Positions 11,230 through 13,744 of a stretch of 64,000 nucleotides of DNA are shown one piece after another (position 1 is the stretch's first letter; every line of letters starts with the position of its first letter). Under the pieces are notes generated by a model that had not been told where the DNA came from, searched no databases, and saw only the letters and a list, made by a program, of their open reading frames with translations. The stretch comes from Fundidesulfovibrio putealis DSM 16056 (lineage in GTDB: Bacteria > Desulfobacterota > Desulfovibrionia > Desulfovibrionales > Desulfovibrionaceae): contig NZ_AUBQ01000004.1 of NCBI RefSeq assembly GCF_000429325.1, positions 310,001-374,000 on the forward strand, given 5' to 3'. Both the position numbers and the translations under genes were made by a program.

Positions 11230-11249
11230 TGGCCGCGCATGTGCGGCCA
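11230..11249. other. Inverted repeat after last tail gene
   Basis: Seven-base arms TGGCCGC and GCGGCCA separated by six bases, 19 bases after the last tail-gene stop. It could be a weak transcription stop, although no T-run follows, or part of the structured stretch that begins just downstream. Confidence 0.4.
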
Positions 11250-11272
11250 CCATGAAGGGATTGTCCAGAAGT

Positions 11273-11347
11273 GGAGGAGGCGGGGCGCTACGAACGCCCC
11301 ACCGGCCCGGTGCGCTAACACCGGACCACGGCCAAGGCCGCTCCTCC
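11273..11347 (+). ncRNA. Candidate cloverleaf-like structured RNA in prophage
   Basis: A 75-base segment can fold as a closed multi-branch RNA. The closing stem pairs GGAGGAG (11273-11279) with CTCCTCC (11341-11347). Inside are three hairpins: GGGGCG/CGCCCC (11282-11287 and 11295-11300, loop of seven), CCGGTG/CACCGG (11307-11312 and 11319-11324, loop of six) and CGGC/GCCG (11329-11332 and 11337-11340, loop of four). The overall size and seven-pair closing stem recall a tRNA, but there is no T-loop consensus or standard D-arm, so it is not called as one. It lies in the 205-base gap between the last tail gene and com. Function unknown; could be a leader controlling com. Confidence 0.35.
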
Positions 11348-11415
11348 CTGCCCTTAACGTGTGGACGCGAAGGGTAGGGAGTTCTAGGCCAAGGCAAACC
11401 AATAAAGCAAGGAAG

Positions 11416-11616
11416 ATGCAGGAGATCAGATGCGCCAAGTGCAATAGGTTGTTGGCCAAAGGCAGCGCGGCGGAGCTTGAGATCAAATGTCCGCGCTGCG
11501 GCGTTTACAATCACTTGAGGGCCATGCCGAGCCCCGACCAAGAGCCCCAAGAGGCCATTCAGCCTGGAGGGGTTCGTGTATGTGGGAAGTCTGTTCAGCG
11601 GGGCGGGGCTTGGTGA
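11416..11616 (+). CDS. com: Mu Com-like zinc-finger translational activator
   Basis: A 66-residue protein aligned by eye to the Mu Com protein: M-Q-E-I-R-C-A-K-C-N-R-L-L against the Mu start M-K-S-I-R-C-K-N-C-N-K-L-L, with the second Cys pair in I-K-C-P-R-C. The four cysteines form the zinc site. Mu Com binds mom mRNA and opens its ribosome binding site. Here the overlapping downstream gene is a cytosine methyltransferase instead of mom. The ATG at 11416 was chosen because it aligns with Mu Com; the longer open frame upstream does not. The last 41 bases overlap the methyltransferase. Confidence 0.8.
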   Translation: MQEIRCAKCNRLLAKGSAAELEIKCPRCGVYNHLRAMPSPDQEPQEAIQPGGVRVCGKSVQRGGAW

Positions 11617-12343
11617 CCTTGGGTTGCACCGGGCGGGCCTCAAGCATCGGTGGTTCTGTGAGTGTGATCCGTATGCCCGGAAAATCCTGGCCGCACGGTG
11701 GCCGGGCGTGCCGATCCTGGAGGATGTAAGGGATGTCAGCGCAGAAACAGCCCATCCAGTCGACGTCCTCGCCGGAGGATTCCCGTGCCAGGACGTCAGT
11801 TCCGCAGGAAAGCGCAGAGGCGTCAAAGAGGGAACCAGGTCCGGCCTCTGGTTCGAGTACCTGCGTATCATTCGCGAGATTCGACCCCGCTACGTCATCG
11901 TGGAGAACGTCAAAGCCCTCCTCAGCAACGGAATGTCCACCGTACTCCAAGGCTTGGCCGAGAGCGGGTATGATGCGGAATGGGACGTGTTTCCGGCGGC
12001 CGCCTTCGGCGCCCCTCACCTGCGTGAGAGGGTTGTCATTGTTGCCTACCCCCACGGCCTTCGACAACCAGGGGCTGGCCCAATACTTGAGGCGGACGCA
12101 CACTTGGCAAAATGTGGGCGTCCTGACGGCCCGTCTGATTGGAATGGTCTACGGCTTGAAGGACCGCGAGCCCAGGCCGCCCTATCGGCTCATCCCGGAC
12201 CCGTCCTTCGTCGAGTGGATGATGGGGGTCCCTACTGGGTGGACCGACTGCGCTGTCTCGGAAACGGCATCGTGCCGGACCTGATGGAGCATGTGGGGCG
12301 GCTGGTTCTGGCGGCTGAAACATGCAGAGCAGCCAACCCATAG
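11576..12343 (+). CDS. C5-cytosine DNA methyltransferase (Dcm type)
   Basis: The 255-residue product methylates cytosine at C5. Ordered motifs: SLFSGAGLGDLGLHRAG (motif I, SAM binding), ECDPYARKIL (II), DVLAGGFPCQD (IV, catalytic Cys in PCQ), RYVIVENV (VI, catalytic Glu), APHLRERV (VIII), and near the C-terminus R-L-R-C-L-G-N-G-I-V-P (IX/X). The enzyme is short, with a target-recognition part of only about 70 residues. The start is a GTG at 11576 with GGAGG five bases upstream. No restriction enzyme is adjacent, so it is probably an orphan phage methyltransferase that protects phage DNA. It overlaps com and probably depends on it for translation (inference from Mu). Confidence 0.88.
   Translation: MYVGSLFSGAGLGDLGLHRAGLKHRWFCECDPYARKILAARWPGVPILEDVRDVSAETAHPVDVLAGGFPCQDVSSAGKRRGVKEGTRSGLWFEYLRIIREIRPRYVIVENVKALLSNGMSTVLQGLAESGYDAEWDVFPAAAFGAPHLRERVVIVAYPHGLRQPGAGPILEADAHLAKCGRPDGPSDWNGLRLEGPRAQAALSAHPGPVLRRVDDGGPYWVDRLRCLGNGIVPDLMEHVGRLVLAAETCRAANP
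11733..12284 (+). CDS. Overlapping frame inside the methyltransferase gene, possible second protein
   Basis: A 183-residue frame lies wholly inside the methyltransferase in the +1 phase, with ATG at 11733 and GGAGG nine bases upstream. Its text is not random-looking: S-P-E-D-S-R-A-R-T-S near the start, then F-D-P-A-T-S-S-W-R-T-S, W-P-R-A-G-M-M-R-N-G, and a C-terminal F-V-E-W-M-M-G-V-P-T-G-W-T-D. From memory, proteins with W-P-R-S-G-M and WLMGFPIGWTDL-like stretches recur next to or across phage cytosine methyltransferases. Such conservation could also be a by-product of constraint on the methyltransferase frame. I regard expression as possible, not shown. Confidence 0.4.
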   Translation: MSAQKQPIQSTSSPEDSRARTSVPQESAEASKREPGPASGSSTCVSFARFDPATSSWRTSKPSSATECPPYSKAWPRAGMMRNGTCFRRPPSAPLTCVRGLSLLPTPTAFDNQGLAQYLRRTHTWQNVGVLTARLIGMVYGLKDREPRPPYRLIPDPSFVEWMMGVPTGWTDCAVSETASCRT

Positions 12344-12356
12344 CAGCACAAAACAT

Positions 12357-12389
12357 AAGGGCCATCGGCGTCTCAGTCGATGGCCCTTT
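12357..12389 (+). terminator. Rho-independent terminator after methyltransferase
   Basis: An 11-pair perfect stem, AAGGGCCATCG with CGATGGCCCTT, loop of ten, then a short T run. It starts 13 bases after the methyltransferase stop and closes the prophage late transcript. Confidence 0.75.
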
Positions 12390-12427: not shown

Positions 12428-12461
12428 TTGCCATAACAGTAGGATATTTGTATAATATCCT
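12428..12461 (+). promoter_or_regulatory. Sigma-70 promoter overlapped by a perfect palindrome
   Basis: TTGCCA (12428-12433), a 17-base spacer and a consensus TATAAT (12451-12456) form a strong promoter 44 bases ahead of the pentapeptide-channel gene. A perfect inverted repeat, AGGATATT-N5-AATATCCT (12441-12461), covers the -10 box, the usual position for a repressor operator. No candidate repressor is encoded next to it, but the rest of the prophage lies outside the window. Confidence 0.65.
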
Positions 12462-12499: not shown

Positions 12500-13551
12500 A
12501 TGGCGAACCAAGAGCATCTGGACATACTGGCCAAAGGCGTTGAGGCCTGGAACGCATGGCGGGGAGAGAATCCCATCGTGGTTCCTGATCTTAGTTATGC
12601 GGAACTTGCTAACAGAGCCCTGGCGGTTAATGAACCTAACCTGGATAAAGTGGGGATTAATCTTTCTGGGGCCATCCTCAGGGGGGCCATTCTCGAGGGG
12701 GCCGTACTCGTTTTTGCCACTCTCAAGGGGGCCGATCTCACATGGGCCAACTGCAGTGTTACCAATCTCTATGAAGCCAATCTCGAAGGGGCCTTTCTCT
12801 TTGAAGCCAATCTCGAGAGGGCCTATCTCTTGAATGCCAATCTCAACGCGGCCTGTCTCGTTGGGGCCGATCTCAATTGTACCGATCTAAATTGTGCCAA
12901 CCTCAGTTGTGCCGATCTCAGGTGGGCCAATCTCAGGGGAGCCAATCTCTCGAGGGCCGATCTCAAAGAGGCCAATCTTAAGGGAGCTAATCTTTCAGAG
13001 GGCGATCTCGAGGGGGCTGACCTCAAAAACGCCGATTTAACATCAACTAACCTCGAAAACGCGAACGTCGCAGGCGTTAAATTCAACGGTAAAGCACTGT
13101 ATGAAGGCATCCGTGTTGATTCATGCTACGGAAGCCAGATGTTCAAAACCTTTGCAATGGATCAGAACTACATCGAAGAATTCCGCAATAAATCGAAATG
13201 GAACCGGTTTCTCTATCGTCTGTGGTTGGTTACTTCCAATTGCGGCAGATCGATGCTGCTGTGGGCAGCATGGTCCGCTGTGTTGTTGGCTATCTTCGCC
13301 TGGGTGTATCATCTGCTTGGCCACAACGCGTTTGTTCATCCCACCTCCGTCGGTTCCCCCCCACCCACACCTGGGACTGGCTCGCGCCGATCTACTTCAG
13401 CTTCGTCACCTTCTCCACTCTAGGGTTTGGTGATATTCATCCGGTAACCCCGGAAGCACGAATATGGGTCATGGCCGAAGTGATGCTCGGCTACATCATG
13501 CTCGGCGGGTTGATCTCCATCTTAGCCAATAAACTGGCCCGAAGGGCTTGA
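12500..13551 (+). CDS. Pentapeptide-repeat/two-TM potassium channel fusion, split by a -1 frameshift
   Basis: The first frame (12500-13423) encodes about 28 A(N/D)LXX pentapeptides, residues 50-190, a right-handed quadrilateral beta helix, then a membrane helix about residues 251-273. The K+ channel pore and second helix continue only in the -1 frame (read to 13551): P-I-Y-F-S-F-V-T-F-S-T-L-G-F-G-D-I-H-P includes a TLGFGD selectivity filter, followed by a helix ending K-L-A-R-R. The switch lies at a run of seven Cs (13356-13362), where C-CCC-CCA is also a classic slippery heptamer. One added C restores a 350-residue protein. Pentapeptide/ion-channel fusions are known in bacteria. It has its own promoter and lower GC than neighbours, like a prophage cargo gene. 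Whether the break is real, programmed or an assembly error cannot be told. Confidence 0.72.
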
Positions 13552-13676
13552 GCCTCGTTCCGAATCCTCGGGATTAACTTCCCGGCCCCCTTTTCCAACC
13601 ATGTCCCCAAAGGGCCAACAAGCCAGTCCGAGGCGCTGATCTCGGGACGCCGATACGCCTAGTGAAGCGTTCACCA

Positions 13677-13718
13677 GAATTCTCAAACTATCTTGCAGGA
13701 ATTCTCAAACTGTTTTGC
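13677..13718. repeat. Pair of imperfect 20-base direct repeats
   Basis: GAATTCTCAAACTATCTTGC at 13677 and GAATTCTCAAACTGTTTTGC at 13699, two mismatches, period 22. Tandem terminal repeats of this size occur at the ends of IS21-type elements, where the transposase binds. Here they may be what is left of one end. An alternative is a phage-encoded binding site. Confidence 0.45.
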
Positions 13719-13744
13719 GCGTTCTACCTGCCCCAAAATCCGCT

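Follow-up and report, generated by a model that had tools for sequence, protein, structure and literature searches.

How a gene for a membrane channel came to be divided between two reading frames, and whether the division serves any purpose, is the question raised by a locus in Fundidesulfovibrio putealis DSM 16056. The window, that is, the whole stretch of DNA analysed, comprises 64,000 nucleotides and corresponds to positions 310001-374000 of contig C2 (NZ_AUBQ01000004.1) in a draft assembly of 4.7 Mb and 29 contigs. Positions given below are those of the window unless the contig is named. The answer depends on where the gene lies, on how its relatives are built, and on what can be said of a run of seven C residues at which the two frames meet.

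One channel in two frames

The first-pass annotation proposed that a single channel architecture is split here over two frames, and profile matches bear this out. ORF1 (307 aa) matches the Pentapeptide family PF00805 over four stretches (123.3 bits), and a second ORF (13198-13551), which overlaps ORF1 in the -1 frame, matches the Ion_trans_2 family PF07885 with 54.9 bits against a cut-off of 22.5. The parts of the gene are as follows.

12500-13423, + strand: ORF1, with an HLDIL-GVEAWNAWR-NP N-terminal motif, pentapeptide repeats, linker, TM1 and then about 20 out-of-frame codons
13253-13318, + strand: TM1 in the zero frame, MLLWAAWSAVLLAIFAWVYHLL, placed by homologue comparison and corresponding to the TM1 helix in the homologue model
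13356-13362, + strand: C7 run, within the frame-break interval 13334-13371 and in the overlap of the two ORFs
13363-13551, + strand: -1 frame part, with pore helix, filter, TM2 and stop (the PF07885 match)
13417-13434, + strand: selectivity filter TLGFGD in the -1 frame
about 13465-13536, + strand: TM2 in the -1 frame

ORF1 contains consecutive A(D/N)LXX repeats of the kind that form a beta-helix, as judged from the bit score and from the regular strand pattern in the model of a homologue, and its linker carries a CGRS motif. The AlphaFold2 model of homologue L104, from Desulfovibrio sp. UBA6079 (327 residues; mean pLDDT 89.9), has the beta-helix, TM1 at residues 235-256, a pore helix at 270-281 and TM2 at 294-326. 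In the window, the filter has a pore helix before it and TM2 after it, as in potassium channels. TM1 lies in a different frame from the pore and TM2, so that in this allele the three are not part of one polypeptide.

The position of the break follows from an alignment with six homologues of the same family, to which the pore half in the -1 frame is 55-67% identical. Homology in the zero frame reaches at least to 13333 and homology in the -1 frame begins at 13372. The alignment thus brackets the break to about 38 nucleotides that hold the C7 run, without fixing the exact nucleotide within the bracket. In the L104 model the interval falls in the loop that joins TM1 to the pore helix and whose length varies among homologues. 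The heptamer C-CCC-CCA is in register with the zero frame, and the -1 relation of the frames at 13356-13362, also claimed earlier, is confirmed. Between the break and 13551 there is no stop, and the filter and TM2 are intact.

The right end of a Mu-like prophage

The prophage setting suspected in the first-pass annotation can now be delimited to a Mu-like prophage, with the channel gene beside its right end, from repeats, a target duplication and phage genes. Within the part of the ORFs that was scanned, the upstream genes form a Mu-type set: a Mu-type transposase, a transposition protein as its partner, Gam, a late activator, and the structural genes for portal, head, tape measure and tail. 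Near the right end the order is Com, C5 methylase, channel and prophage end.

11239-11616, + strand: Com-like zinc-ribbon protein of Mu-like phages (PF10122, 66.9 bits; phrog_6417, translational regulator)
11576-12343, + strand: C5 cytosine methyltransferase (PF00145, 154.6 bits; phrog_363 over residues 1-250)
13680-13712, + strand: two transposase-binding-like repeats TTCTCAAACT, 22 bp apart (starts 13680 and 13702), at the right end
13726, no strand: right terminus, uncertain by a few nucleotides; the left terminus is at C2:281628
13727-13731, no strand: target duplication CCTGC, matching C2:281623-281627

The methyltransferase occupies what we take to be the position of mom in Mu. An ORF of 183 aa (11733-12284) overlaps it out of frame and matches phrog_1008, a phage methyltransferase (E 7e-24). 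By tblastn this ORF matches 93 phage records, and most of the 20 listed are annotated as methylase or methyltransferase; both frames of the overlapping pair resemble methylase C-terminal types.

The ends of the element are those of a Mu-like phage, bearing repeats and bordered by a 5-bp target duplication. Inverted copies of the repeat lie at C2:281642 and 281724, at the left end. CCTGC is the only symmetric 5-bp match in 41 offsets and stands 14 nucleotides outward from the outer repeat at both ends. The prophage is 42,099 bp long and ends, on the right, with the channel as last gene; the Mu-transpos_C match of the prophage is the only one in the genome. Among 288 genomes of the family, four further copies of this right end, each with no more than one mismatch, were found: two in this genome, on contigs C12 and C5, and the others in G002 and G006. 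All four right-end alignments stop at C2:323724-323733, within a few nucleotides of the terminus at 323726. Candidates that differed from the pattern at two positions (G041, G174 and G252) were dropped, because at that tolerance the reversed control gave seven hits and the true pattern was not the commoner of the two. The left flank had no DNA match at the kinase loci of G001-G003. Since an empty site was not found in these relatives, the placement of the prophage ends relies on three things: the duplication, the repeats and the right ends shared with other loci.

No second Mu transposase was found in this genome behind the right ends on C12 and C5, and for this reason we read the two as scars; they look like scars that kept cargo after the prophage was lost. 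These solo ends (G000:C12:45431-45478 and G000:C5:136736) adjoin a methylase fragment and a umuC-like gene, names that come from reading the sequence. The tandem, 22-bp-spaced TTCTCAAACT motif is also present in nine IMG/VR viral contigs (L241-L250), several of them with termini near CTACA or TTATA, and it could serve to locate the ends of this group of transposable phages.

The channel gene as cargo

Low GC, a promoter of its own and an upstream terminator are the usual marks of a moron. GC content is 52.5% in the channel gene and 64.4% in the part of the window that belongs to the prophage, and three features precede the gene.

12359-12389, + strand: terminator-like hairpin GGGCCATCG...CGATGGCCC followed by TTT, found by eye and unscored, separating the channel from the upstream operon
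12428-12456, + strand: sigma-70-like promoter TTGCCA-17-TATAAT with 11 of 12 consensus matches, predicted by consensus only
12441-12461, no strand: perfect inverted repeat AGGATATT-TGTAT-AATATCCT with 8-bp arms, over the -10 box, operator-like

The loop of the hairpin is longer than the terminator scan permits, and downstream of the channel that scan found nothing. The promoter scan gave two sites with at least 9 matches in the region; shuffled sequence gave 1.0 on average. Even with one mismatch allowed, the 7-bp-arm motif of the inverted repeat occurs nowhere else in the 1.42 Mb of the genome that was examined, and the repeat suggests control by a regulator. The control region of the cargo starts near 12428, outside the interval 12500-13551 that holds the two ORFs. 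By its low GC, its own promoter-like site, the inverted repeat and the upstream hairpin, the channel gene looks like a moron.

A related arrangement is seen in G006, a genome of another species of the same genus that is 66% complete. An alignment of 219 columns is 73% identical to window positions 13511-13728. The G006 segment (L254:11482-11695, on G006:C45) comprises the last 13 codons of the channel (12 of 13 residues identical), the 3' flank and the right end. It follows directly after a histidine-kinase gene, and the rest of the channel gene is absent in front. We read the segment as a probable scar, the remnant of a related prophage that had the channel in the same place.

Homologues of the channel

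Homologues were sought by a profile scan of genome contigs, with a query alignment of the unique part of the gene, from linker to TM2. The scan confirmed 312 stretches, of which the best 80 were kept, representing 79 distinct loci. The junction of TM1, pore and TM2 is in one frame in all 79 kept loci. The judgment was made by script for 77 of them, with at least 75 codons before and at least 30 after the pore motif, and by translation for L053 and L100, whose filter region departs from the search pattern and which were excluded from the measurement of runs. Over the 45 codons that precede the pore, the longest G/C run in the 77 measured homologues is 6, reached in three loci; runs of at least 7 are absent from all of them. 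A/T runs of 7 are present near the junction without a break in L008, L042, L059, L096 and L099.

The six homologues of the same family (L006-L011) are also all uninterrupted; four of them appear to be the same as L046, L061, L081 and L104 among the 79, to judge from ORFs of identical sequence or length and from the lengths of the contigs. They come from a search that gave 13 matches, one being the window itself; these six, which also match the piece from linker to TM1, were kept. The remaining L012-L017 were set aside as other channels, and one of these, L013, shows repeat-like sequence by eye. In L061 (and L010) no repeats are visible in any frame over about 340 bases upstream of the linker, after which the contig ends, and the repeats are therefore not established for every kept locus. 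In L073:4636-6333, from an uncultured Woeseiaceae, the gene is in a single frame with about 37 residues fewer between the CGRS motif and the pore, and TM1 looks shortened.

The channel is absent from six other genomes of the same genus (E 1e-6). Close relatives were sought in phage records with no DNA match and two weak tblastn matches, and none of five stretches was confirmed when the N-terminal part was compared with viral contigs. Judged by the profile matches, the family, in which a pentapeptide beta-helix is combined with a potassium pore, is widespread.

Origin of the frame break

In the window, C7 is rarer than expected, with 4 observed against 29 expected from shuffles. G/C runs of at least 7 number 150 in 1.42 Mb of this genome, about 1 per 9.5 kb, and from this density the chance of such a run in a 38-nucleotide interval is about 0.5%. 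Because a chance coincidence is so improbable, the break very probably arose at the C7 run, and the two are probably causally linked. Such a link is expected from slippage in the cell and from sequencing error alike.

The explanation we favor, and consider reasonably likely, is that the moron potassium channel of a Mu-like prophage was inactivated by ordinary, recent slippage at C7. The prophage would carry at its right end a self-contained gene for a two-TM potassium channel, with the pentapeptide beta-helix as the N-terminal and presumably cytoplasmic part. The -1 change at C7, between TM1 and the pore helix, would leave a 307-residue protein that has the beta-helix and TM1 but lacks the pore, so that no channel functions; the ordinary mutation responsible would be slippage of the strands at the homopolymer. 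The break would be recent because the filter, TM2 and the stop are preserved and no stop follows the break. The intact protein would be a tetrameric channel with the beta-helix as sensor or anchor, and might conduct K+ once something binds to the repeat domain, perhaps as a membrane effector or in ion homeostasis during lysogeny. The C7 tract can slip back, and the loss is not necessarily permanent. If the channel were costly, its loss may have been favored, by analogy with RexAB in Pseudomonas putida, for which prophage loss or mutations are reported in suppressors of RexA overexpression (PMC12894663).

The break would look the same if the assembly or the sequencing were at fault, the true tract being in one frame and the channel of the prophage intact. 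The coincidence with a homopolymer, the lack of a stop before the end of the channel and the draft state of the genome, with its 29 contigs, all agree with such an error. The assembly was examined through homology, a run being counted as covered when it lay wholly inside one homology match with 45 nucleotides on either side. All 28 covered G/C runs of at least 7 are in frame (122 of the 150 runs are without coverage). None of 32 apparent frame changes touches a run of at least 7 and one touches a run of 6; many of the 32 are antisense or sit at gene edges. With 28 of 28 in frame, the error rate has an upper 95% bound of about 10%, with which a single error is compatible. The assembly thus appears to be without a general fault at G/C runs of at least 7, as represented by the 28 covered of 150. 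Homology was used in place of a frame-continuity test based on codon composition, whose three versions disagreed and left 68-86% of the runs of at least 7 unclear. Two earlier versions gave 1/20 against 43/1424 and 1/10 against 40/1184. In the third, 147 runs of at least 7 and 3000 random places were examined; of the informative ones, 8 of 37 runs, this one among them, and 71 of 707 random places showed frame changes, with a like excess at runs of 6 (22/97). This excess at G/C runs favors an error to some extent; it may be due to gene edges, yet the assembly is not cleared by it. With the covered runs all in frame and no apparent frame change at a run of at least 7, we regard an error as unlikely.

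Three further explanations give the tract a function. Phase variation, in which the channel would alternate between on and off as the C tract slips, the off state being the one that was assembled, would accord with the intact frames on both sides of the tract. The tract exceeds the 6-base cut-off of a Neisseria survey, which reports C5/C6 alternation (PMC5084427). Prophage membrane cargo can be costly; for Pseudomonas putida, the RexA suppressors noted above are reported (PMC12894663). Against a switch, no G/C run of at least 7 is found there in the 77 measured homologues, runs of C7 or longer occur about every 9.5 kb in the genome, so that this one is not special, and the single assembly has only one tract length. 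That the homologues examined lack the tract and read straight through, an outcome that the first-pass annotation had itself named as refuting its proposal, counts against the idea of a conserved switch, and phase variation seems to us quite improbable. Still less can be said for a composite of these ideas, that a recurrent prophage channel cargo acts as an exclusion or membrane-potential effector, ligand-gated through the beta-helix and toggled here by C-tract slippage in the pore turret; we hold it to be very improbable. Programmed -1 ribosomal frameshifting on C-CCC-CCA, as raised in the first-pass annotation, would yield some full-length channel, and both the register of the slippery heptamer and the direction of the shift, into the right frame, are as it demands. 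The site is not conserved, with 0 of 79 homologues interrupted at the junction and 0 of 77 measured carrying a G/C run of at least 7. No stable structure is predicted downstream (z -0.41, with 73 of 200 shuffled sequences folding equally well, in a model without pseudoknots), and by eye there is no purine-rich, Shine-Dalgarno-like stretch just upstream. The suggestion of a programmed shift has therefore fared poorly, and we give it hardly any credence.

Relation to known systems

The repeat fold and the channel fold, as recognized here by sequence matches, are each already known. Channels of PF07885, K2P and MthK being among the solved matches, have the same pore helix, T-L-G-F-G-D filter and TM2, and the homologue model has the order TM1-pore-TM2. 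They differ from the protein here, which has a pentapeptide beta-helix before TM1 and whose pore, in this allele, is out of frame with TM1. MthK has an RCK domain at its C-terminus. HetL, Qnr, MfpA and Alr5209 are pentapeptide-repeat proteins with the same repeat, to which a channel is added here. None of the 17 NCBIfam matches of ORF1 reaches its cut-off, and the protein is not filed as Qnr or MfpA. A sequence search with L104 gave matches to 23 solved sequences (E 1e-5), every one of them confined to the repeat part (residues 7-155), and thus no solved chain that unites repeats and channel. No paper on the combination of pentapeptide repeats and potassium channel was found among those listed in the literature searches. 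The pair of pentapeptide repeat and Ion_trans_2 is presumably a listed Pfam architecture.

As right-end cargo, the gene has a counterpart in mom of Mu, with the same Com, methylase, cargo and right end with 22-bp-spaced repeats. Unlike other Mu-like right-end cargo, the cargo here is a potassium channel with its own promoter-like site. RexB of lambda belongs to a fold family different from that of the channel. From the annotation of neighbours, the channel has Com and the methylase upstream and the prophage end downstream, and no RexA-like partner is evident. Like the channel, RexB of the RexAB systems is a prophage-borne membrane protein, proposed as an ion channel (PMC12894663). PADLOC gave no match for either ORF, and the part in exclusion or defence that the first-pass annotation put forward is a candidate role.

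Phage linkage and significance of the family

At four other loci, relatives of the channel have phage genes beside them. L006, the intact homologue in G050, is less than 5 kb from a CII-like activator, a repressor-like gene and a phage-type helicase (of four submitted proteins, three matched). In G053, L008 is near tail, tape-measure, DnaB-like and Rha-like genes (all six submitted proteins match phage families, the function being clearly named for four). Of eight IMG/VR loci, the two whose channels were scanned with Pfam (L121 and L123) have both Pfam parts, and their neighbours are a Mu-type transposase and S24 repressor, or an integrase and lysozyme. The channel of L121 (3341-5035; 564 aa, with pentapeptide repeats, on a viral contig) is on the repressor side of the transposase and not at the right end.

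Recurrent neighbours were sought by scanning 64 of 98 listed proteins, from 25 of the 79 loci, and no Pfam family was found in more than 4 of the 64. The families shown, 25 of 97, are housekeeping or signalling families. The loci in G019, G037, G008 and G028 look chromosomal by eye. The neighbour scan and these chromosomal-looking loci count against a general phage-linked role.

A more useful result than the broken frame is that a widespread channel family is carried as terminal cargo by a Mu-like prophage. Should it prove that phages carry ligand-gated potassium channels again and again, what such channels do in lysogeny or exclusion would become a concrete, testable question.
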